64,000 nucleotides of DNA from Saccharicrinis aurantiacus (GTDB lineage: Bacteria; Bacteroidota; Bacteroidia; Bacteroidales; Marinilabiliaceae). Each line of letters starts with the position of its first letter. Position 1 is the first letter of the stretch. The notes beneath the pieces were generated by a model. That model had not been told where the DNA came from, did no database searches, and saw only the letters and a list, made by a program, of their open reading frames with translations. The stretch covers positions 186,001-250,000 of the forward strand of contig NZ_LYBV02000007.1 in assembly GCF_001660705.2 (NCBI RefSeq), given 5' to 3'. The position numbers and the translations under genes are program-made. Shown one piece after another: positions 6,020 through 28,397 of this stretch.

Positions 6020-6733
6020 TTATTCCTCTTTGTTTTTACGTCGTTGGCGTGTTTTGCTATTTTCATCAGCAATTAGCTTTTCAACAGCGGCGCATACATT
6101 TGTGTAATCTTTATCGGCAATGTATTGGCGATAACGCAAACCACTTATTAGTTTGGTGTTTACCAATACTACCAATTGTTTTTTAAGCTTAGTTGCTGCT
6201 ATTACCTCTTTCTCGTTTAATCGGGTATCTAATAATCTAGCTTGCGAGTTTTCAAAATTACTAGCCGATACCTTTAGTGCTTCAGTTAAAGGAGCTACTC
6301 CAGGCAAAGCCATGATAGCTGCTACCATTTCTTCTTTTGCCAAATCGGTAAAGTACGAGTTTAGGTAAGCTGTTTCGGCTCCGTTGCTTGAGTTTAATAT
6401 ATCTCTCTTATACCTGTCGTTTAAACCTTGCAATAGTATTGCAGCGTCAGCAATTTCTTTAGTAGGATAGTGCGTTTAACCATCCGTTAATGCTACTATA
6501 GCTCTAAAATCATTATCGCGTAAATCATCTAAATGTTCTAAATCAGATAAGGCTTTATCCTTGTTAATAGACTTGTTTAATGCTTGGTTCAGTGTAGTAA
6601 TTTCGTTAACTACACCAGCCAAGGCTGTATCTTTAGTTAGTAAATCGGCACTAAATACACCAATAATTTTACTAACTACATTGTTTAGCTCGGCATTTCG
6701 CATAGAGCTTAAAACTTTCTGAATAATCTTCAT
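6020..6733 (-). pseudogene. DUF6261-like protein split by an in-frame TAA stop
   Basis: Two minus-strand frames, 6476-6733 (85 aa) and 6020-6433 (137 aa from its first Met), lie in the same reading frame. The first ends at TAA 6476-6478, and the sequence continues without any frameshift as THYPTKEIADAAILLQGL into the second. Joined, they give about 237 residues of helical, unsecreted protein, with an N-terminus of 'IIQKVLSSMRNAELNNVV' type and a Lys/Arg-rich tail. This resembles the uncharacterized DUF6261 proteins that are common in Bacteroidetes and often repeated in a genome. One stop is the only lesion seen, so it is either a recent nonsense mutation, a sequencing error or a readthrough case. 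Function is unknown. The family name comes from recalled similarity and should be treated as probable. Confidence 0.65.
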
Positions 6734-6811
6734 AGGTATTATTTATTATAGTTTAGATAAAAGGGATTTCGTTATAATTTGTACAAGGGCTTCATTTTAT
6801 AATCACGTGTG

Positions 6812-7066
6812 TACAAACAAACACGCTGTTAATAATTTAAAGTGGCGTGTACGTTTGTATACAAAGGGTGTTGTGCCAGTTTGGCGTATGTACAAACGTA
6901 AAAAGTATCTCCCGAGTCCAGTTCGTAAAAAATACAAACGTATAAAGAGCTCCCCTTGCCAGTTTGGCATATTTAGGTTTGCATAAAGTGCAAAATAACT
7001 TCAGTTTGTGCTTTATACGTTTGTACACAAGCTATTTTTAGCCCAGGTAACTTATGTACATTTACA
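6812..7066. repeat. Array of 41-42 bp phased degenerate repeats
   Basis: A ten-base motif related to TACAAACGTA recurs at 6850 (inverted form), 6891, 6933, 6974 (inverted, degenerate), 7016 (inverted) and 7057 (degenerate), spaced 41, 42, 41, 42 and 41 bp. A weaker copy at 6812 is 38 bp before the first. Between these, a CCAGTTT motif recurs at 6876, 6918, 6959, 7001 and 7043 (42, 41, 42, 42 bp); two copies sit inside the palindrome GCCA-GTT-TGGC. The period is close to four turns of B-DNA. The period is not a multiple of three, so this is not a coding repeat. It sits between the split DUF6261-like gene and the T9SS protein, in a 640-bp region with no convincing gene. Confidence 0.7.
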
Positions 7067-7375
7067 CACGCCTGTATACAGAAATTTTGAGTGCTTGATA
7101 AAATTGTTTTCGAAGATGATTTGGCTGCATGAGTATACCGCAGCTTTGCAGATTTTATTTATTGGGGTCATTTTGTATGGGTTAAAAATTCGGATTACGA
7201 AATTAATGAAATGCAGCAAAATGACAAATCTTATGTAACTTATTATACCCATCAAGATATTATTATCATATAGTAGATGCGGGAGAAATCAAGCCCACAT
7301 CTACTTGTATTTGTACTTATACTTTTTATAGAAAAGAAGTATATTGCCCTCAATAATCTTAAATTAATTCTAAAT
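7067..7375. other. Intergenic stretch without a supported gene
   Basis: This follows the repeat array. A stop-free stretch at 7133-7275 on the plus strand could be a relic of a gene, but it has no start codon and no recognisable family. The 10-mer CTTATGTAAC at 7230-7239 is identical to the half-site repeated upstream of the xylan locus GH3 gene (50507-50516 and 50548-50557). I see no clear promoter or terminator. Confidence 0.4.
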
Positions 7376-7876
7376 ATGAGAAAACGAAAAATGAAGTTTT
7401 GTGTTGTATTACTTCTGGGTATAGGACTTATAGGAGTTCAAGCTCAAAGTATTTTAAATGTAAAAGTTGGTTCTGAGAATTTCACACATGAGATAAACGG
7501 AATTAGAAAGCTGACCTTTACAGGTGATAATTTAAACGTAATTACTTGGGATGCTTCTACAAGTAATTTTGCCCTAGCAAATATTGATAAGCTATTTTTT
7601 AGCGATACACCCACAAATATGCCTCCAAAAGGAGCAGCTTTAAACCAAATAGAGCTTTTCCCTAATCCTGTACAGGATATCTTAAATATTAAAAATAACA
7701 CTTCAGATAACTGCAATTGTATAGTCGAAATTCTCGATTTAAAAGGTACTATTCTGCTAAAAGAAGACCTTGGTGCTATCAATAGCATAAATGTATCAGT
7801 ATTGCAAAAAGGCATGTATATATGTCGTGTTTATTACTGTGATAAAATTGAGAATCTTAAATTCATAAAAAACTAA
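7376..7876 (+). CDS. Secreted protein with type IX secretion sorting domain
   Basis: The ATG at 7376 (MRKRKMKFC) is preferred because it begins a good signal peptide ending near GVQAQS; an upstream in-frame ATG at 7277 would put 33 odd residues in front. The product is 166 residues. The first half has two short 'I.KL.F' repeats (INGIRKLTFTG and ANIDKLFFSD), a pattern common ahead of sorting domains in Bacteroidetes. The last 75 or so residues form a Por-secretion C-terminal domain (type A): ELFPNPVQDILNIKN, then a middle strand EILDLKGTILLKEDL and the final L.KGMYICRV...KFIKN. The protein should therefore cross the outer membrane by T9SS and be attached at the surface. There is no passenger enzyme, which is unusual. 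It is 6 bp upstream of the next gene, so the two are co-transcribed. Confidence 0.8.
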   Translation: MRKRKMKFCVVLLLGIGLIGVQAQSILNVKVGSENFTHEINGIRKLTFTGDNLNVITWDASTSNFALANIDKLFFSDTPTNMPPKGAALNQIELFPNPVQDILNIKNNTSDNCNCIVEILDLKGTILLKEDLGAINSINVSVLQKGMYICRVYYCDKIENLKFIKN

Positions 7877-21412: not shown

Positions 21413-22036
21413 TTGATGGTAGCAAGTGTTGTTACCATAATGATTGTTTTAGATGTAAAACATAATGGTATCAATGTTTTTGGGGTGGATAAACTAGACA
21501 ATATTATTAAACAATGCAGAAAGAATAAGCCTGCTGCGCAAAAGGAGCTTTATCAGCTTTTTTCGCCTAGGTTGTTCGGTGTGTGTTTGCAATATTGTAA
21601 GGATAGAACTGAAGCAGAAGACAATCTTCAAGAAGGATTTATTAAGATCTTTAGTAATATTAAACAGTTTAATTTCCAAGGTTCATTTGAAGGATGGATG
21701 AGAAGGATTATGGTGAACACAATAATAGCTTCTTTCCGAAAAAAGAACCCGGTTTATTTTACCGATAATATTGAGGACTTTGAAAGGGATTATATAGAAG
21801 AGCAAGTTGAGGAAAGTAAAGTTAAGCTTCCTGAATTATTGAAATTAATTGAAGAGTTGCCCCCTAAATATAAATTAGTATTTAATTTATATGCATTAGA
21901 GGGGTACACGCATAGTGAAATATCAGAGATATTAAGTATTAGTGAAGGAACATCTAAATCAAATCTATCTAGAGCAAGAAAATTATTAAAAGATAAATTG
22001 AATAAGGCAAATGTGGCTGAAATTCAAACCGCATAA
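21413..22036 (+). CDS. ECF-type RNA polymerase sigma factor
   Basis: An extracytoplasmic-function sigma-70 factor, 207 residues as given. Region 2 begins at CRKNKPAAQKELYQLFSPRL and includes the -10-binding helix (EAEDNLQEGFIKIF..I..F); region 4 has the helix-turn-helix ALEGYTHSEISEIL-SISEGTSKSNLSRARK. The true start is unsure: ATG 21413, ATG 21440 or GTG 21485 are in frame and the shorter ones fit family length better. The downstream gene begins 5 bp later and has an anti-sigma-like topology, so the pair is probably a sigma factor with its regulator. The target regulon is unknown. Confidence 0.9.
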   Translation: MMVASVVTIMIVLDVKHNGINVFGVDKLDNIIKQCRKNKPAAQKELYQLFSPRLFGVCLQYCKDRTEAEDNLQEGFIKIFSNIKQFNFQGSFEGWMRRIMVNTIIASFRKKNPVYFTDNIEDFERDYIEEQVEESKVKLPELLKLIEELPPKYKLVFNLYALEGYTHSEISEILSISEGTSKSNLSRARKLLKDKLNKANVAEIQTA

Positions 22037-22041
22037 GTAAT

Positions 22042-23514
22042 ATGAATAAAGATATCGACAATATATTTAAAGATGGACTCCAAGGTCATACCGAGGAGCC
22101 ACCTGCGTTTATATGGGATTCTATCAATAGTGAGTTAGGTACTGCACGTGCTAATAATAATCGTATTGTAATATGGCGCAGTCTTGCTGCAGCCGCATTT
22201 ATTGGTGTTATTTTCTTAAGTGGTTTGTTGTTTAAAGGTATTGATGATAATTTAAACTCAAATGAGGTTATTGGATACAATCATTCAAATAATGAAAAAG
22301 TAGAGAAAGAAAAAATAGTTAAGGAGGCTGCCGTAATTTCTTCAGATGAACCTAAAACGGAGGAAAAGCAAATTGAATCAATCACAAAAGTAGTTGTGCC
22401 AACAAAGACCTTTTTATCAGAACAATCTGAATTTAGCGACTCTAGAAAAAGTAATGAAAATAAAGCTAAGACAAGTAATGCTCAAGATAACGAGAAACCT
22501 AATTTATCTAATGAGCAAGAATTTATTGTAGAAACTCAAATAGAGGAGACTGAAGTAGATTCAAGTGCTGTTGTTTTAGATGATGGTAGTAATGAGCAAA
22601 CCCCAAGCTCTGAAGAATTGAATGAATCATTACCAATTGTTTATTCAGAAGGCTCTCAAGTTATTTTGGCTCAAAATAATCAGAAAAAAGAATACGAACC
22701 ATTTCCAGGTAAGCCTTCTGTGTATAATCCAACAAAGAGTAAGTCAAAGTACGTAATAACCTTAGGTGGGCAAGTTGCACCTGGTTATTCTGATAAAGAA
22801 GTTTCAGGGGCTTCAAACACTGCAAGTAAAGAATCAGGAATTGTTACAATTTCCGGTGGGCTTAATGTAAATGTGAAAGCAAAGAGTCGATGGAGTATTG
22901 AAACAGGGGCCTATTATACCCAGTCAGGACAAAAATTTTCTAATGAAGTATATGGTGATGATAGATCTTTATTCATGAGAGCTAATAGAGCTAAAGTCAC
23001 TGAAAAAGAAACTGAGGTGCCATTAAATAATTCTCTAGGGAAAATAAACCTTAAGAATGTTCCTATTTTTGGTGAGGATAATTATGGTAAAATGCCATCT
23101 CTTCCTAACGTGAGTAATCCAGAATTAGGAAGTCCAAATAATACTGTTGGAATGATTGATATTCAGCAGGAATTAGATTTTATAGAAGTGCCTTTATTGG
23201 TTCGTTATCACTTAATAGATAGTAAGGTTAATTTGTCTCTTGCCGGAGGTATGAGTACAAATTTTTTAGTTGATAACAATGTATACTATCTAGAAGGGGG
23301 TAATAAAACCTGGATTGGAGAAACAGAACAAATCAATAATGTTAATTATAGTGCAGTGTTTGGTTTGGGCCTTCAAGCTCCAATTTGGAAAACGCTTCAG
23401 TTTAATTTAGAGCCACGATTGAAGTATTTTATGAATTCTGTATCAAGTGATACTTCAACAGATTATAAACCTTATTCTATCGGGTTGTTTACTGGCGTTA
23501 GTTTTAGGTTTTAG
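22042..23514 (+). CDS. Membrane protein with C-terminal outer-membrane-barrel-like region, partner of the ECF sigma factor
   Basis: A 490-residue protein. The first 45 residues are cytoplasmic and carry the 'DNIFKDGL..H..EPPAFIWDSI' pattern common in proteins encoded next to Bacteroidetes ECF sigma factors. One transmembrane helix follows (about 47-67, LAAAAFIGVIFLSGLLF), then a long acidic, Ser/Glu-rich linker (70-230). The last 250 residues alternate like an outer-membrane beta-barrel (PorT/OMP_b-brl style) and end in an aromatic (VSFRF). If this reading is right, one chain would link the cytoplasmic sigma factor to the outer membrane across the periplasm. Alternatively the C-terminal part is a periplasmic beta domain. 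It converges with the ABC transporter gene, with only 2 bp between the two stops. Confidence 0.6.
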   Translation: MNKDIDNIFKDGLQGHTEEPPAFIWDSINSELGTARANNNRIVIWRSLAAAAFIGVIFLSGLLFKGIDDNLNSNEVIGYNHSNNEKVEKEKIVKEAAVISSDEPKTEEKQIESITKVVVPTKTFLSEQSEFSDSRKSNENKAKTSNAQDNEKPNLSNEQEFIVETQIEETEVDSSAVVLDDGSNEQTPSSEELNESLPIVYSEGSQVILAQNNQKKEYEPFPGKPSVYNPTKSKSKYVITLGGQVAPGYSDKEVSGASNTASKESGIVTISGGLNVNVKAKSRWSIETGAYYTQSGQKFSNEVYGDDRSLFMRANRAKVTEKETEVPLNNSLGKINLKNVPIFGEDNYGKMPSLPNVSNPELGSPNNTVGMIDIQQELDFIEVPLLVRYHLIDSKVNLSLAGGMSTNFLVDNNVYYLEGGNKTWIGETEQINNVNYSAVFGLGLQAPIWKTLQFNLEPRLKYFMNSVSSDTSTDYKPYSIGLFTGVSFRF

Positions 23515-23516
23515 GT

Positions 23517-25301
23517 TTATATAATGCTACGTTGTGTAGCATTTGCCATTTCATAAAAAACACCTTTATTGGCCATTAGTTCTTTTGGACTACCAACTTC
23601 AGCAATTTCGTTATTATCAATTACAACAACTCTATCTGCTAGGTTTATAGTTGATAATCGATGACTCACAATTAATGCAGTTCTTCCTTTAGTGATTTTG
23701 TCAAAATTTTCAATCATCTGAGCTTCTGTAAAGGCATCCATCGAACTTGTTGGTTCATCTAAAATAATTAACTGGGCATTATTATAGAATGAACGCGCGA
23801 GGGCCATTCTTTGCCATTCACCCATACTCAACATTTCACTGTCTTTAAATAAAGTGCCGAGTTTAGTGTCGAAACCTTGGGGTAATTTTTCTAGAGTCTC
23901 TTTTATACCAGCCTTTTCAGCATTCAACTTAATGTCTTCCTCATTCATCTCTTTATTGACATCACCAAACCAAATATTTTCCTTGGCTGTTGTATTATAA
24001 AGCATGAAATCTTGAAATATTACGCTAATATTTTGAGAAATGGACTCGTTACTTATATCAGATAAATTAATGTCATCAATGAGAATTTTCCCAGAACTAG
24101 GTTTGTATAATCCACATAAGAGTTTAATTAAGGTTGTTTTGCCAGCGCCATTTGCCCCAACTAAGGCTATGGTTTCTTCTTTATTTATGTTTAAATTAAA
24201 ATTGTTAAATACCTTACGTTTACTGTTTGGGTATTTAAAACTTAAGTTTTCTATAAAAATACCCTTCTGAATAGTTTTTGGAAAACTAATATTCGTTTTG
24301 TGTTTTGTGTTTGGATGTTTGTAATCGATAAATTCAAATAAGTTTTTTAAGAAATTGCCATCATCAAGGAGAGCTGTGATATTTCCTAAAAGTTCTTGAA
24401 GAATTCCGAAGCCTCTATATAAAGCTAGCAGATACATTACCATAGTGCCCTGTGAGATATTTCCATTGATGGCTTCCTTTGTTACAAAACCGAATACTAA
24501 GAATAGCGATACGGATGCAAATATCTGTAGGAATATTTCATGGCTTGTTTTCCTTCGTAATAAGTTTAATTGGTCGTTCCTTAGCTCATCTTTTAGATTC
24601 TCATATTGGTTCTTAAAAAGCCAGCTTAAGTTAAATATACGAAGTTCTTTTGCATACTCTTTACCTGTTAATAGTCTGTTGTAGTATCCTACAACTCTTT
24701 CTTTTTCGGTTTGATTATTCTTAAGGCTAAATAGTTGTTTCGAATAATTTAACCTCAGTATTACTATTGGGAGTGATGTGATTATAAGTGTAATTATAGC
24801 AAACCAATGCAGCGAGCTTAATAGTCCAGCAATTAATAAAAGGGTAATGCAGTTTTGCAGAATCTTAATAAAACCATAGTATATTCGGGAGGGTCGAATT
24901 GTTGATTCATTTATAGCCCGGTGAAATATATTTTGGAAGTTTACATTTTCATAAGAACTGTAGCTAAAAGTGGTTGTATGAGAATGAATGATGTTTTGGA
25001 TATAATCGTTTATTGAATAGGAATGTTTTTGGTTTATTAGCGAGCCAATAGACGTTAATATAGCATTGAGTATAAATAATAATCCAGTTAAGAAGAGTGT
25101 AATATATAAAGTAAAGTCCTCGTTATTATTGTTTTGAATTGATGTAGCAATTTCATCAACCAATAATTTAATAATATATATAAGGCAAACAGGTAAAAAT
25201 CCTTTGATTAAAATAACAAAGGCGTTTATAACAGACCATTTTCTTGAGCTTTGCCAAACTATTTTAAGTGAACGGAGTATGTGTTTAATTTTATCCTTCA
25301 A
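23517..25301 (-). CDS. ABC exporter, fused permease-ATPase (probable peptide exporter)
   Basis: A 594-residue half-transporter of the MsbA/peptide-exporter type. About six membrane helices (20-320) are followed by a nucleotide-binding domain with Walker A GANGAGKTTL, Q-loop VIFQDF, signature LSMGEWQRMALAR, Walker B LIILDEPTSSMD and H-loop VSHRLS. The signature reads LSMGE instead of LSGGQ, a variant seen in peptide-type exporters. There is no N-terminal C39 peptidase domain, so any leader must be removed by another enzyme; the adjacent signal-peptidase-like protein is the natural candidate. It is the last gene of the minus-strand cluster 23517-27264, 56 bp after the peptidase. Its role as exporter of the 73-aa peptide product is inferred from context. 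Confidence 0.88.
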   Translation of the reverse strand: MKDKIKHILRSLKIVWQSSRKWSVINAFVILIKGFLPVCLIYIIKLLVDEIATSIQNNNNEDFTLYITLFLTGLLFILNAILTSIGSLINQKHSYSINDYIQNIIHSHTTTFSYSSYENVNFQNIFHRAINESTIRPSRIYYGFIKILQNCITLLLIAGLLSSLHWFAIITLIITSLPIVILRLNYSKQLFSLKNNQTEKERVVGYYNRLLTGKEYAKELRIFNLSWLFKNQYENLKDELRNDQLNLLRRKTSHEIFLQIFASVSLFLVFGFVTKEAINGNISQGTMVMYLLALYRGFGILQELLGNITALLDDGNFLKNLFEFIDYKHPNTKHKTNISFPKTIQKGIFIENLSFKYPNSKRKVFNNFNLNINKEETIALVGANGAGKTTLIKLLCGLYKPSSGKILIDDINLSDISNESISQNISVIFQDFMLYNTTAKENIWFGDVNKEMNEEDIKLNAEKAGIKETLEKLPQGFDTKLGTLFKDSEMLSMGEWQRMALARSFYNNAQLIILDEPTSSMDAFTEAQMIENFDKITKGRTALIVSHRLSTINLADRVVVIDNNEIAEVGSPKELMANKGVFYEMANATQRSII

Positions 25302-25357
25302 TTGTTTAATATTACTTGTTAGATGATAATTAGTAATGTAAAGATAAAAATATGAAT

Positions 25358-25819
25358 TTAATTGGGGACGTTTTTGAGTTTATACCAAATACGGGCTAGG
25401 TAATAGGTGAAGTAGCCTAATATTGGTGTAGTTATAACTATCAGCTGTTTAATAAAAATAGAGTGTCGTATCTTTAATATCTTACCATTGCGTTTGTGTA
25501 GAACGCTAATGGCTAATAGTTTATCTCTGTTAATTGTTTTGTCAAAATTAATTAAACTATCACCTTTTGTAAGGTATTGGCCTTTAGTGTGGTCAAATTT
25601 TATAAGTCTGTGAAATATAATTCTGTTTTGTCTCTCAAAGAATACCACATCACCTTTCTTCAGGTTGTTAAAATCTATTGGTATAACCTTCACAACATCG
25701 CCTGGTAAATAACACGGAAACATACTTAATCCATGTACAGGAATTTCGACAGAAACCCCATCTGCAATCATTTCTTTTATCGCTTCTAGTAATAGTTGTT
25801 GTTTGCGTTGGGTGTTCAA
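25358..25819 (-). CDS. S26-family signal-peptidase-like protease (ER/archaeal type, Ser-His)
   Basis: A 153-residue protein with the motifs of S24/S26 peptidases. The nucleophile is Ser32 in HGLSMFP, with PGDVV following, then FHRL with His70, and TKGDS with Asp87. Having His where bacterial LepB has Lys puts it with the ER Sec11/SipW branch. It lacks the usual N-terminal membrane anchor; instead one hydrophobic segment lies near the C-terminus (about 122-142). Such an orientation could place the active site in the cytoplasm. The start codon overlaps the kinase stop by 4 bp (25816-25819), so translation is coupled. Inferred job: removing the leader from the 73-aa peptide before or during export. 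Confidence 0.8.
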   Translation of the reverse strand: MNTQRKQQLLLEAIKEMIADGVSVEIPVHGLSMFPCYLPGDVVKVIPIDFNNLKKGDVVFFERQNRIIFHRLIKFDHTKGQYLTKGDSLINFDKTINRDKLLAISVLHKRNGKILKIRHSIFIKQLIVITTPILGYFTYYLARIWYKLKNVPN

Positions 25820-26715
25820 TAGTCTAATTCTTTAATTAGTTTAACAATTTCACCGTCTGGCTTGAAGCCTACCTCGTAAACCTTTATTTTATTGATAATA
25901 GATTCAACTATATCTAAATGATTCTGAATCATACCTTGCTCATAAAACTGCTGAATAAAATTACTCAGTACTTTAGTAAATGCATGTACACCACTTAAGG
26001 GTTTTATATAGTTATTAGGGTGTTGTTTTAAAATAAATATTTTAGTTAGTGTGCTTTCTATTGGTTTTTGGGTATAGTATGGCATAGGGGTATTGTAGAC
26101 TTTTATATGGTCTCCTATATTTCTTATTGCTAGCCTATCGTCATTAATGACTGTATGTCCGGCTTGGTGCCATAATCTTGCCATGGTTGATTTGCCAATG
26201 CCTGATATGCCGGTAAATGCATATGCTTCATCATTGTTGATAATGCACGATGCATGTATTAATACTCCATTGTTCCAGTGCAATAGATATAAACTTAATA
26301 GGGCACCAAAAGGGTGAGAGTATGGGTCGACTATGAGTTTGTTGTGAAATGTACCTTTCACATATGCATTAACTGTATTGCTATTATTATTTTTAACAGC
26401 AACTATCTCATCTATTGCAGGGTGATTCTCATAATCTATTTTAATAACAACCGATTCTTTATTTTTAAAGATATGCCACTTATACTTCAGGAATTCTTCC
26501 GTAGTTAAATTGCCAGAAAAGACTCTTTGATACGAAGTTAGATTATAGCTATCTTCTGAATAATGATAGTTTAGATGGTAATCTGGTGCGTGATTAGGAA
26601 AAACTTTGGAATAAGCAGAAATAGAACAACTTAAATCAAGTTGAATAAATTTACTTTTAGTTGATATTAAAATGTTAATACCTGAAATATTGACGTATAA
26701 ATTGGCATCATTCAT
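25816..26715 (-). CDS. HprK-like serine kinase (P-loop kinase of peptide-modification type)
   Basis: A 299-residue cytoplasmic protein related to the C-terminal domain of HPr kinase. The typical order is present: GVLIHAS (about 150-156), Walker A GISGIGKST (169-177, Lys175), then VINDDR with Asp192-Asp193, the site that in HprK positions the Ser hydroxyl. The N-terminal 140 residues are beta-rich and not recognised; they could bind the substrate. HprK-like kinases of this kind occur in some lasso-peptide clusters, where a relative phosphorylates the peptide's C-terminal Ser. Here the gene begins 12 bp after a 73-aa peptide with a poly-Ser stretch, making that peptide the obvious substrate. 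This is inference; polysaccharide-linked roles are known for related genes too. Confidence 0.8.
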   Translation of the reverse strand: MNDANLYVNISGINILISTKSKFIQLDLSCSISAYSKVFPNHAPDYHLNYHYSEDSYNLTSYQRVFSGNLTTEEFLKYKWHIFKNKESVVIKIDYENHPAIDEIVAVKNNNSNTVNAYVKGTFHNKLIVDPYSHPFGALLSLYLLHWNNGVLIHASCIINNDEAYAFTGISGIGKSTMARLWHQAGHTVINDDRLAIRNIGDHIKVYNTPMPYYTQKPIESTLTKIFILKQHPNNYIKPLSGVHAFTKVLSNFIQQFYEQGMIQNHLDIVESIINKIKVYEVGFKPDGEIVKLIKELDY

Positions 26716-26727
26716 AGCGTAAAGCTA

Positions 26728-26949
26728 CTAATAAGATACTGTATTTCCGCCGAATGGATCATTCTCTTGTGATGGAAAGCTATTCTGTATTGAGGTGCTT
26801 GAGCTTGATGATGAGCTTCGGCTAGCCCATGGATCTGGGCCAGGATCAACTGGTGGTGACATCATTACCATTGAGATCTCTTGATCAACAATAATCTCGT
26901 CCATAACTGGGGAGTTATAATATTTTCTATGTTTAATCTCTCTTTTCAT
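26728..26949 (-). CDS. Candidate RiPP precursor peptide, Ser-rich
   Basis: A 73-residue peptide with no signal peptide. The N-terminal half is charged and helix-like (KREIKHRKYYNSPVMDEIIV, then DQEISMVMMSPP), the kind of leader seen in many short Bacteroidetes peptides. The second half starts with the Pro/Asp/Gly stretch PVDPGPDPW, followed by S43-R44, seven consecutive serines (45-51), Thr52-Ser53, then NSFPSQENDPFGGNTVSY with a Ser next to the terminal Tyr. Mixed AGC and TCA serine codons argue that the run is selected at protein level and is not simple slippage. It lies between the PqqD-like gene (24 bp upstream) and the kinase (12 bp downstream). A plausible product is a multiply phosphorylated, exported peptide. 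No family name is known to me. Confidence 0.7.
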   Translation of the reverse strand: MKREIKHRKYYNSPVMDEIIVDQEISMVMMSPPVDPGPDPWASRSSSSSSSTSIQNSFPSQENDPFGGNTVSY

Positions 26950-26973
26950 AATTGGTTTAATGCACTCCTAATG

Positions 26974-27264
26974 TTATAAAATAACACCTTTACTTAAGGC
27001 GTGATTTATAAATTGCTCAATGTCATTATGGGCAATTGCTTTATCTACCTCATATTCTTCAGTTAAAGTTGATAAAATATCATTAACTGAATTTTTGTTG
27101 TTAATCTTATTGTAAATAAAGGTCCCCACCTCATTGAGAGTAAAAACTTTATTCATATCAGCAATGTTATCGGAAATGGGTACTAACACAGTTTCATTTC
27201 CTATTTGCTTCTCAACAAAGTCAATACTCTTTTTATAAACTACGTTTAGATTAATTTTGTTCAT
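26974..27264 (-). CDS. PqqD-like peptide-recognition protein (RRE)
   Basis: A 96-residue PqqD-family protein, the RiPP recognition element that binds leader peptides and presents them to modifying enzymes. The start at 27264 (MNKINLNVVY) is preferred over one four codons upstream. Family features are the early strands VLVPISDN, the LNEVGTFIYNKI helix, and SVNDILSTLTEEYEVDKAIAHNDIEQFI followed by a final strand. It is the first gene of the cluster, 24 bp before the peptide gene. A -7-like element, CAAAAGTA on the plus strand (27274-27281), is just upstream. Confidence 0.85.
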   Translation of the reverse strand: MNKINLNVVYKKSIDFVEKQIGNETVLVPISDNIADMNKVFTLNEVGTFIYNKINNKNSVNDILSTLTEEYEVDKAIAHNDIEQFINHALSKGVIL

Positions 27265-27273
27265 AGTAATCCC

Positions 27274-27281
27274 CAAAAGTA
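27274..27281 (-). promoter_or_regulatory. Candidate -7 promoter element of the peptide cluster
   Basis: Read on the minus strand this is TACTTTTG, matching TAnnTTTG, 9 bp before the PqqD-like start. A TTG at -33 is not seen and the leader would be almost absent, so this is only a candidate. If real, the cluster is transcribed independently of tsaD. Confidence 0.35.
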
Positions 27282-27377: not shown

Positions 27378-28397
27378 CTAAAATACAACTCTTGAAAAAG
27401 GAGCTGCATCATGGCTAATGAAATCTTTGTTACAATATTTGTAATAGCCAGTTACGGCTATCATAGCTGCGTTGTCGGTGGTGTACGCAAATTTTGGTAT
27501 AAAGGTTTCCCAATTTTGTGTTTTTGCTAGTTTTTGTAAGCTGTCTCTTAGGCCTGAGTTTGCTGAAACACCTCCTGCTAGGGCAATTTGTTTAATATTC
27601 AAGTCTTTTGCAGCTAGTTTCAGTTTGATTAAAAGAATATCAATTATGGTAGCTTGTAATGAGGCGCACAAATCGTTCTTATTTTCTTCAATGAAGTTTT
27701 CATTCTCTTTTAGTTGATCTCTCAGGAAATATAAAAATGAGGTTTTTAATCCACTAAAACTATAGTCGTAGCCTTTTATTCGTGGTTTAGAGAACTTGAA
27801 AGCATTAGGATTCCCATCTTTTGCTAACTTATCAATTAATGGACCTCCAGGATATGGCAAGCCCATAACTTTGGCGCATTTATCAAATGCTTCGCCTGCT
27901 GCGTCATCAATAGTTTGTCCTACTACTTCCATTTCTGTATGGCTTTTAACCAAAACAATCTGACTATTTCCTCCTGAAACTAATAGGCATAAAAAAGGGA
28001 AAGATGGATGTTTTATATCGTTATCAGGTTCATTTATAAAATGAGCCATTATATGAGCATGTAAATGGTTTACATCAATGAGTGGAATGTTATTTGCTAA
28101 TGCAAAGCCTTTTGCAAAGGAAGTGCCTACTAATAAAGATCCCATTAGTCCAGGACCTCTTGTAAATGCAATGGCATCAATTTTCTCAGGTTTAACATTA
28201 GCTTCTTTTAACGCTTTGTCTACTACAGGTATAATATTTTGCTGATGCGCTCTTGAAGCTAACTCTGGCACAACGCCACCGTATGCCATATGAACATCTT
28301 GATTTGCTACCTTATTTGATAACACAGTGTCATCTTTAAAAACTGAAGCTGATGTATCATCGCAGGAAGATTCTATTCCAAGTATATAAATGCTCAT
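27378..28397 (-). CDS. tsaD: tRNA N6-adenosine threonylcarbamoyltransferase
   Basis: TsaD transfers the threonylcarbamoyl group to A37 of ANN-decoding tRNAs, acting with TsaB and TsaE. The 339-residue product has the N-terminal ILGIESSCDDTS, the metal-binding HAHIMAH region, and the LLVSGGNSQIVL and ALAGGVSANSGLR nucleotide-binding motifs. Length is normal. It is divergent from the tamB-like gene and upstream, on the same strand, of the PqqD-like cluster with a 113-bp gap. Confidence 0.97.
   Translation of the reverse strand: MSIYILGIESSCDDTSASVFKDDTVLSNKVANQDVHMAYGGVVPELASRAHQQNIIPVVDKALKEANVKPEKIDAIAFTRGPGLMGSLLVGTSFAKGFALANNIPLIDVNHLHAHIMAHFINEPDNDIKHPSFPFLCLLVSGGNSQIVLVKSHTEMEVVGQTIDDAAGEAFDKCAKVMGLPYPGGPLIDKLAKDGNPNAFKFSKPRIKGYDYSFSGLKTSFLYFLRDQLKENENFIEENKNDLCASLQATIIDILLIKLKLAAKDLNIKQIALAGGVSANSGLRDSLQKLAKTQNWETFIPKFAYTTDNAAMIAVTGYYKYCNKDFISHDAAPFSRVVF

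Follow-up and report, generated by a model that had tools for sequence, protein, structure and literature searches.

A probable Bacteroidota branch of the linear polyphosphorylated peptides and its genomic pairing with large T9SS-type proteins

What five adjoining minus-strand genes for a leader-binding protein, a small peptide, a kinase, a peptidase and an exporter might make, and what their product might serve, is the question raised by positions 23517-27264 of the stretch analysed here, a 64,000-nucleotide window of the Saccharicrinis aurantiacus genome (contig NZ_LYBV02000007.1, positions 186,001 to 250,000). An earlier note on this DNA had read them as a pathway resembling those of the RiPPs (ribosomally synthesised and post-translationally modified peptides), with a leader binder, a peptide substrate, the in-cluster kinase as modifying enzyme, a serine leader peptidase and an exporter, and had stated that no characterised system with this set was known. 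The first part of that reading holds, as the same set forms the core of the linear polyphosphorylated peptides (LPPs), a RiPP class of Bacillota published in May 2026 (PMC13381572); the second part has been overtaken by that publication, and a phosphorylating RiPP system of this kind is already known. By analogy with the LPPs, the locus probably belongs to a Bacteroidota branch of LPP-type RiPPs, the phosphopeptide of which would work with a subclass of large surface proteins of the type IX secretion system (T9SS). Two features are new and unexpected: nearly every genome of one family has kept the pathway, mostly in a single copy, and its precursors are paired with large T9SS-type proteins.

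All five open reading frames (ORFs), head to tail on the minus strand, were confirmed at the positions given in the earlier note, as were the intergenic gaps of 24, 12, -4 and 56 nt derived from their coordinates. The first gene encodes a PqqD-like leader-binding protein, or RiPP recognition element (RRE), of 96 aa (26974-27264, minus strand; ATG start; PF05402, E 2.1e-16), for which an alternative TTG start at 27276 is also open. It is followed, on the same strand, by the 73-aa precursor peptide (26728-26949), a 299-aa HprK-like kinase (25816-26715), a 153-aa leader peptidase resembling archaeal-type signal peptidases (25358-25819) and a 594-aa MsbA-like ABC (ATP-binding cassette) exporter (23517-25301; PF00005, E 2.1e-34). 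The LPP core comprises a PqqD-like leader binder, an HprK-like kinase, an archaeal-type signal peptidase, an MsbA-like exporter and an NTP-transferase, and its genes LppA, K, B, S, D and N were described from Paenibacillus alginolyticus (PMC13381572).

The 73-aa peptide has no family match in Pfam or NCBIfam, and it was accepted as a gene and not a chance ORF because relatives were found at 37 of the 60 fetched kinase loci, so that the small ORF is indeed conserved beside the PqqD-like and HprK-like genes and passes the refutation test that the earlier note had set. A weak 38th row (L093, E 0.0044) was excluded from the peptide alignment (A1). Tyr11, Pro14 and Asp22 are invariant in an alignment of 38 peptides, and the YxxP leader motif formed by Y11-P14 (26908-26919, minus strand) is present in all 38 main-locus peptides and in all 66 examined peptides encoded elsewhere. 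The fifth residue after the leader Tyr is I, L, V or M in 102 of these 104 peptides, and a hydroxyl residue stands 20 positions past the same Tyr in all 104 (66 Ser, 38 Thr); in the window copy this is Ser31 (26857-26859, minus strand), the predicted phosphorylation site. For these counts the peptides were anchored on YxxP and the Asp at +11, and the Ser/Thr at +20 was not used as an anchor; the peptides were gathered with a profile of the peptide family itself, which biases them toward conserved leaders, and loci L082, L084 and L092 were left out of the profiles behind both these counts and the survey of precursors outside the cluster. In the LPPs the leader is cut after the T of FET and phosphate is placed on the third core residue, S3 of LppA (PMC13381572). 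Because the hydrophobic-then-hydroxyl arrangement resembles that of the LPPs, the comparison suggests a leader cut within residues 28-30 and a phosphate on Ser31, which is likely to be the modified residue. At the C-terminus a PFGG motif (26746-26757, minus strand) is conserved, with PF falling inside the final 22 residues in 35/38 main-locus and 62/66 other peptides. The serine-rich run, after which the earlier note had named the peptide (residues 45-53; 26791-26817, minus strand), was rejected as a functional feature upon comparison of the 38 peptides: it is not conserved and is peculiar to the window copy, which with 11 spacer serines has the highest number in a range of 1-11.

YxxP is the motif read by the RREs of LPPs and of many lasso peptides, and in LppB it is contacted by N33, D70 and F74 (PMC13381572). 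These residues align with N44 (27133-27135), D81 (27022-27024) and F85 (27010-27012, all minus strand) of the PqqD-like protein, which are accordingly predicted to bind YxxP and are conserved in 50/50, 47/50 and 47/50 PqqD-like proteins, respectively. The nearest solved structure is PbaB1, a lasso-peptide protein (9x90, E 5.4e-4), followed by LppB itself (9x8z, E 0.0037), and the top-scoring NCBIfam model is a lasso model, under its cut-off. Both matches speak for a decayed lasso cluster, stripped of its cyclase and transglutaminase-type peptidase; such an origin is nonetheless very improbable, given that the gene set is conserved across the family and the peptidase is of the LPP kind. Searches of the S. 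aurantiacus genome gave no match to the transglutaminase-type leader peptidase PF13471 and three matches to PF00733, spread over two genes, one reading like AsnB and one like QueC, both far from the cluster. The lasso remnant was consequently rejected, and the absence of both lasso enzymes that had been noted from the window is borne out at the scale of the genome.

Sequence-family matches of the kinase are weak (PF07475, E 7e-4; NCBIfam HprK_rel_B, E 4.6e-7). An AlphaFold2 model built from 46 relatives had a mean pLDDT (predicted local distance difference test) of 93.7, and profile and model match structures of HPr kinase/phosphatase and PEPCK with E values of 3e-6 to 1e-4 and TM-scores of 0.2-0.4 over the query. 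H154, the P-loop residues S171-T177 and D192 D193, which we take to be catalytic, are invariant in the 46 aligned sequences out of 60 on hand. The fold is common to enzymes of differing substrates, as the matches of the model to both HprK and PEPCK illustrate, and the kinase might thus act on a lipid, a sugar or another protein while the peptide is merely cleaved and exported. We regard this as unlikely, in view of a hydroxyl residue held at fixed leader distance in every one of the 104 peptides with free exchange of Ser and Thr, of the co-occurrence of kinase and peptide across genomes described below, and of the phosphorylation by LppK of the corresponding region in an LPP (PMC13381572). The phosphopeptide product foreseen in the earlier note is, by this analogy with a published sister system, well supported.

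The peptidase is of the archaeal signal peptidase I type (TIGR02228, 49.1 bits, slightly under the cut-off of 51.85). S29, H68 and D93 are required in LppS (PMC13381572), and S32, H70, D87 and D93 are present here in 33 of 33 sequences; the alignments used for kinase and peptidase (A3/A4) took 46/60 kinases and 25/33 peptidases, two further peptidases being counted in the 25. The best NCBIfam match of the exporter is MsbA_lipidA at 274.7 bits, below the cut-off of 602.

Whole-genome searches were carried out in 100 relatives, of which 60, S. aurantiacus included, belong to its own family, probably the Marinilabiliaceae, and 40 lie outside it. The kinase (E up to 1e-3) was found in 68 of the 100, namely 58/60 within the family and 10/40 outside, and is single-copy in all positive genomes but one. 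A scan of named genomes gave 61 kinase loci, many in Marinilabiliaceae (Labilibacter, Saccharicrinis, Plebeiobacterium, Marinilabilia, Carboxylicivirga, Natronoflexus, Alkaliflexus, Geofilum, Anaerophaga and others). The order TsaD-like gene, PqqD-like gene, peptide and kinase, often with peptidase and exporter, recurred in the 60 fetched neighbourhoods. Among the 63 genomes in which the kinase matched strongly (E up to 1e-20), 55 had the peptide, versus 2 of the 37 others, some of the peptide matches being weak; precursors and genomes are related by descent, and the significance of this co-occurrence, like that of the pairing described below, is not to be taken literally. In a phylum sample of 395 genomes, among the listed members of which S. 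aurantiacus was the only one of its family, the kinase profile scored above 70 bits in 12 genomes besides its own; at E up to 1e-8 there were 54/395 genomes, with most rows spanning the P-loop only.

The earlier note had treated the five genes as a complete set, and in this it fell short: further precursors are encoded elsewhere, the NTP-transferase gene lies apart, and in some relatives the system is linked with large T9SS-type proteins. Peptides were found by profile search (E up to 0.01) in 57/100 genomes, 46 of which hold at least two, and S. aurantiacus itself carries two further peptides on contigs C50 and C19. A hand count gave 124 peptide matches; about 39 belong to the kinase locus, and 66 of the other 85 or so were examined. 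Because the kinase is mostly single while most peptide-positive genomes hold at least two peptides, a single set of enzymes probably acts in trans on several precursors. None of the five cluster genes is an NTP-transferase. The S. aurantiacus genome has one PF14907 NTP-transferase gene, on contig C16 among unrelated-looking genes; the family was detected in 58/60 family genomes (single in 53 of these) and, outside the family, in 9/10 kinase-positive versus 3/30 kinase-negative genomes, and it adjoins the exporter in the order-level loci L081, L084 and L090. All LPP functions are thus probably present, one of them in trans, and a self-contained operon was rejected on account of the dispersed precursors and the unlinked NTP-transferase.

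The surroundings of the dispersed precursors carry the second part of the argument. Of the 66 outside-cluster precursors, 46 sit at most 60 nt behind a same-strand gene, usually for a protein of 640-1930 aa, whose C-terminal region belongs to a divergent subclass of the T9SS sorting domain (alignment A2; hereafter A2-type), while only 1 of 392 further genes in these loci has such a protein directly upstream. Since 41 of the 46 paired proteins had gone into the A2 C-terminal profile, the pairing and scoring counts lean toward these; TIGR04183 served as the independent check, and matched 40/41 paired C-termini (E up to 0.01), weakly. The own-genome partner on C19 reaches 23.4 bits with this model (cut-off 23), the weakest among 105 matches. 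A2-type C-termini outscored ordinary sorting domains and covered more of the profile in 11 genomes, ten of the top matches being in the training set. A Pfam scan of six paired proteins gave Big_5 Ig-like domains in four and M1-peptidase domains in two. No report of T9SS cargo paired with a RiPP precursor was found in the literature searched, which covered few subscription papers.

At the kinase locus itself, an A2-type protein, a truncated one or a remnant was seen in 18/59 neighbourhoods, in 8/59 at 45 bits or more, and the proposition that the cluster always lies beside such proteins was rejected on these counts. In 17 family genomes the cluster lacks a peptidase or the locus is cut, and the peptidase family was recovered in 16 of them, with one match in each of 15 and two pieces in G035. 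Of the 16, 8 have an A2-type protein no more than 1.3 kb from the detached peptidase; G014, G020 and G035 have an ORF of 1679-2042 aa near it with no visible domain, G011 and G047 have large ORFs farther away, and G015, G042 and G050 have no large ORF near it. The order in loci L299, L304 and L305 is large protein, peptidase and exporter, then genes reading like those for an outer-membrane protein (OMP), a sigma factor and SmpB, as in the window flank; therefore the large proteins sit inside what is apparently the same ancestral locus as the window cluster.

The same phosphopeptide might instead be secreted as a standalone signal, bacteriocin or metal binder, with the large proteins merely co-regulated or acting as its receptors. 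RiPPs are often signals or bacteriocins, and some of the large proteins have no peptide nearby; the 20 of 66 outside-cluster precursors that lack cargo directly upstream also fit this explanation. It is nevertheless doubtful, since retention in 58/60 family genomes, often syntenic, is unlike the patchy occurrence of Bacillota LPPs, and since tight same-strand pairing, seen with downstream genes of 17 different groups (several being singletons), calls for a closer link. In seven of the first 58 precursors a large protein is present in another arrangement.

Several observations weigh against an LPP-type pathway working with large T9SS proteins, beginning with the 20 unpaired precursors just mentioned. 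A2-type proteins without a peptide in the fetched stretch occur in genomes G054, G058 and G019 and in the S. aurantiacus genome (G000), which has three; the proposition that every protein of the subclass has a peptide was rejected after some of these had been re-inspected. The cluster in the window has no large T9SS-type protein as a neighbour. One genus (g5) keeps the kinase and SprA, with no peptide match in 6/10 genomes and weak matches in 4/10. Because SprA is found in 98/100 relatives, T9SS presence is uninformative on the distribution of the pathway and was dropped as an explanation of it. On the side of the LPP analogy, PbaB1 ranks above LppB as the best RRE match in the PDB; Thr stands at Y+20 in 38/104 peptides, although in the published test LppK modified Ser but not Thr (PMC13381572); and the C-termini, highly variable in LPPs, here share the conserved PF motif.

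The branch of LPP-type RiPPs proposed above would operate by steps that we infer as follows. The PqqD-like protein would hold the YxxP leader of the peptide while the HprK-like kinase adds one or more phosphates to Ser31; the signal-peptidase-like enzyme would then cut within residues 28-30, and the remaining core, about 44 residues long, would be carried to the periplasm by the MsbA-like exporter. The further precursors encoded elsewhere in the genome would be processed by this enzyme set as well, and the NTP-transferase, encoded apart from the cluster, may add to the phosphate. Once exported, the phosphopeptide could act with the subclass of large T9SS surface proteins as a partner, an attachment aid or a decoration. 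More tentatively, and against the odds in our estimation, the entire pathway may be dedicated to protein secretion, the exported phospho-core being a partner, anchor or acceptor needed by these proteins for surface display or attachment, such that a peptide-natural-product pathway would have become a housekeeping part of the secretion system throughout the family. A near-universal pathway tied to large surface proteins points to a concrete role for LPP-type peptides, the biological role of which is given as unknown in PMC13381572. If the proposal is true, this RiPP type extends beyond Bacillota, and Bacteroidota may differ in how they retain T9SS cargo at the cell surface.

The cluster is flanked on one side by a TsaD-like gene (27378-28397, minus strand; named by reading, BLAST match at 43/60 loci), an upstream neighbour kept in many relatives and outside the pathway, and on the other by a convergent block with OMP, sigma-factor and SmpB-like genes. 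Within this block, the OMP-barrel protein (22042-23514, plus strand; Pfam and neighbourhood comparison) is a recurrent flank, probably also outside the pathway, and an ECF-type (extracytoplasmic function) sigma factor (21413-22036) precedes it. Elsewhere in the window, a 199-aa frame contains a T9SS sorting domain (7655-7873; G000:C67:193655-193873), one of the 105 matches of the genome.

Individual loci showed further features. The third peptide of the S. aurantiacus genome (L124, 8709-8933) is flanked by genes that read like a carbonic anhydrase and a methyltransferase; no protein of the large T9SS type adjoins it. In several genomes the cargo-peptide pair is immediately preceded by a conserved protein of about 240 aa with DPLG.AC.D...G near its start (L125, 11526-12242; L128, 14186-14902; L130, 1966-2682). 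Genome G042 has two kinase loci (L079 and L080), and both come with a peptide and T9SS-type proteins of their own. In G035 a 543-aa transposase-like gene (L056, 8970-10601, minus strand) lies between the PqqD-like gene and the kinase, where no peptide was seen, and the peptidase gene is in two pieces (L311, about 6644-7070), an arrangement that is possibly due to decay or to an assembly fault. In loci L194-L197, HprK-like kinases (three in ORFs of about 660 aa), PqqD-like and signal-peptidase-like proteins accompany paired genes that read like radical SAM (S-adenosylmethionine) enzymes, a different RiPP-like arrangement. Loci L188, L190 and L193, from order- or class-level Bacteroidota, hold a PqqD-like gene and the kinase, joined in L188 and L190 by peptidase and exporter, and adjoin genes reading like glycosyltransferase, Wza and Wzz capsule-export genes; this context resembles that described for LPPs of Bacilli (PMC13381572).

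Among known systems, the HprK-related kinases A and B (TIGR04352, TIGR04355) share an HprK-type kinase with the present cluster; the kinase here reaches 17 and 29 bits with these models, whose cut-offs are 200. These kinases associate with PqqD-like proteins. The precursor-paired proteins end in the domain of T9SS type A cargo (TIGR04183), but as a subclass with weak matches. The phosphorylated lasso peptides of the paeninodin type share the RRE, the HprK-like kinase and the NTP-transferase (PMC13381572) but differ in the cyclase and transglutaminase-type peptidase, which were not found here, and in reading WxxP where the present leaders carry YxxP. A word search of PMC10352776, PMC7470986 and PMC12710340 returned no mention of HPr. 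Among the papers looked at in searches for related systems, only PMC13381572 describes one of this kind.

The closest likeness is to the LPPs, with which the cluster shares a discrete RRE, an HprK-like kinase, an archaeal-type signal peptidase, an MsbA-like exporter, a YxxP leader, the lack of a cyclase and a Ser (here Ser/Thr) right after the hydrophobic end of the leader. Set against the LPP motif YxxPxVLxHQxIxFETxxS, the present peptides agree at the Y, P, hydrophobic, I and L/F-like positions and at the final Ser/Thr, whereas the H, Q and F-E-T positions and the spacing differ, the distance from YxxP to the leader end being about three residues longer here. LPPs were called patchy and restricted to Bacillota (PMC13381572); the string 'bacteroid' does not occur in the main text of that paper, and the restriction may reflect the search used there. 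In contrast to the LPPs, which keep the NTP-transferase in the gene cluster and are scattered among Bacillota, the present system has that enzyme unlinked, belongs to Bacteroidota, is held by 58 of the 60 genomes of one family, and combines dispersed precursors with a link to large T9SS-type proteins.

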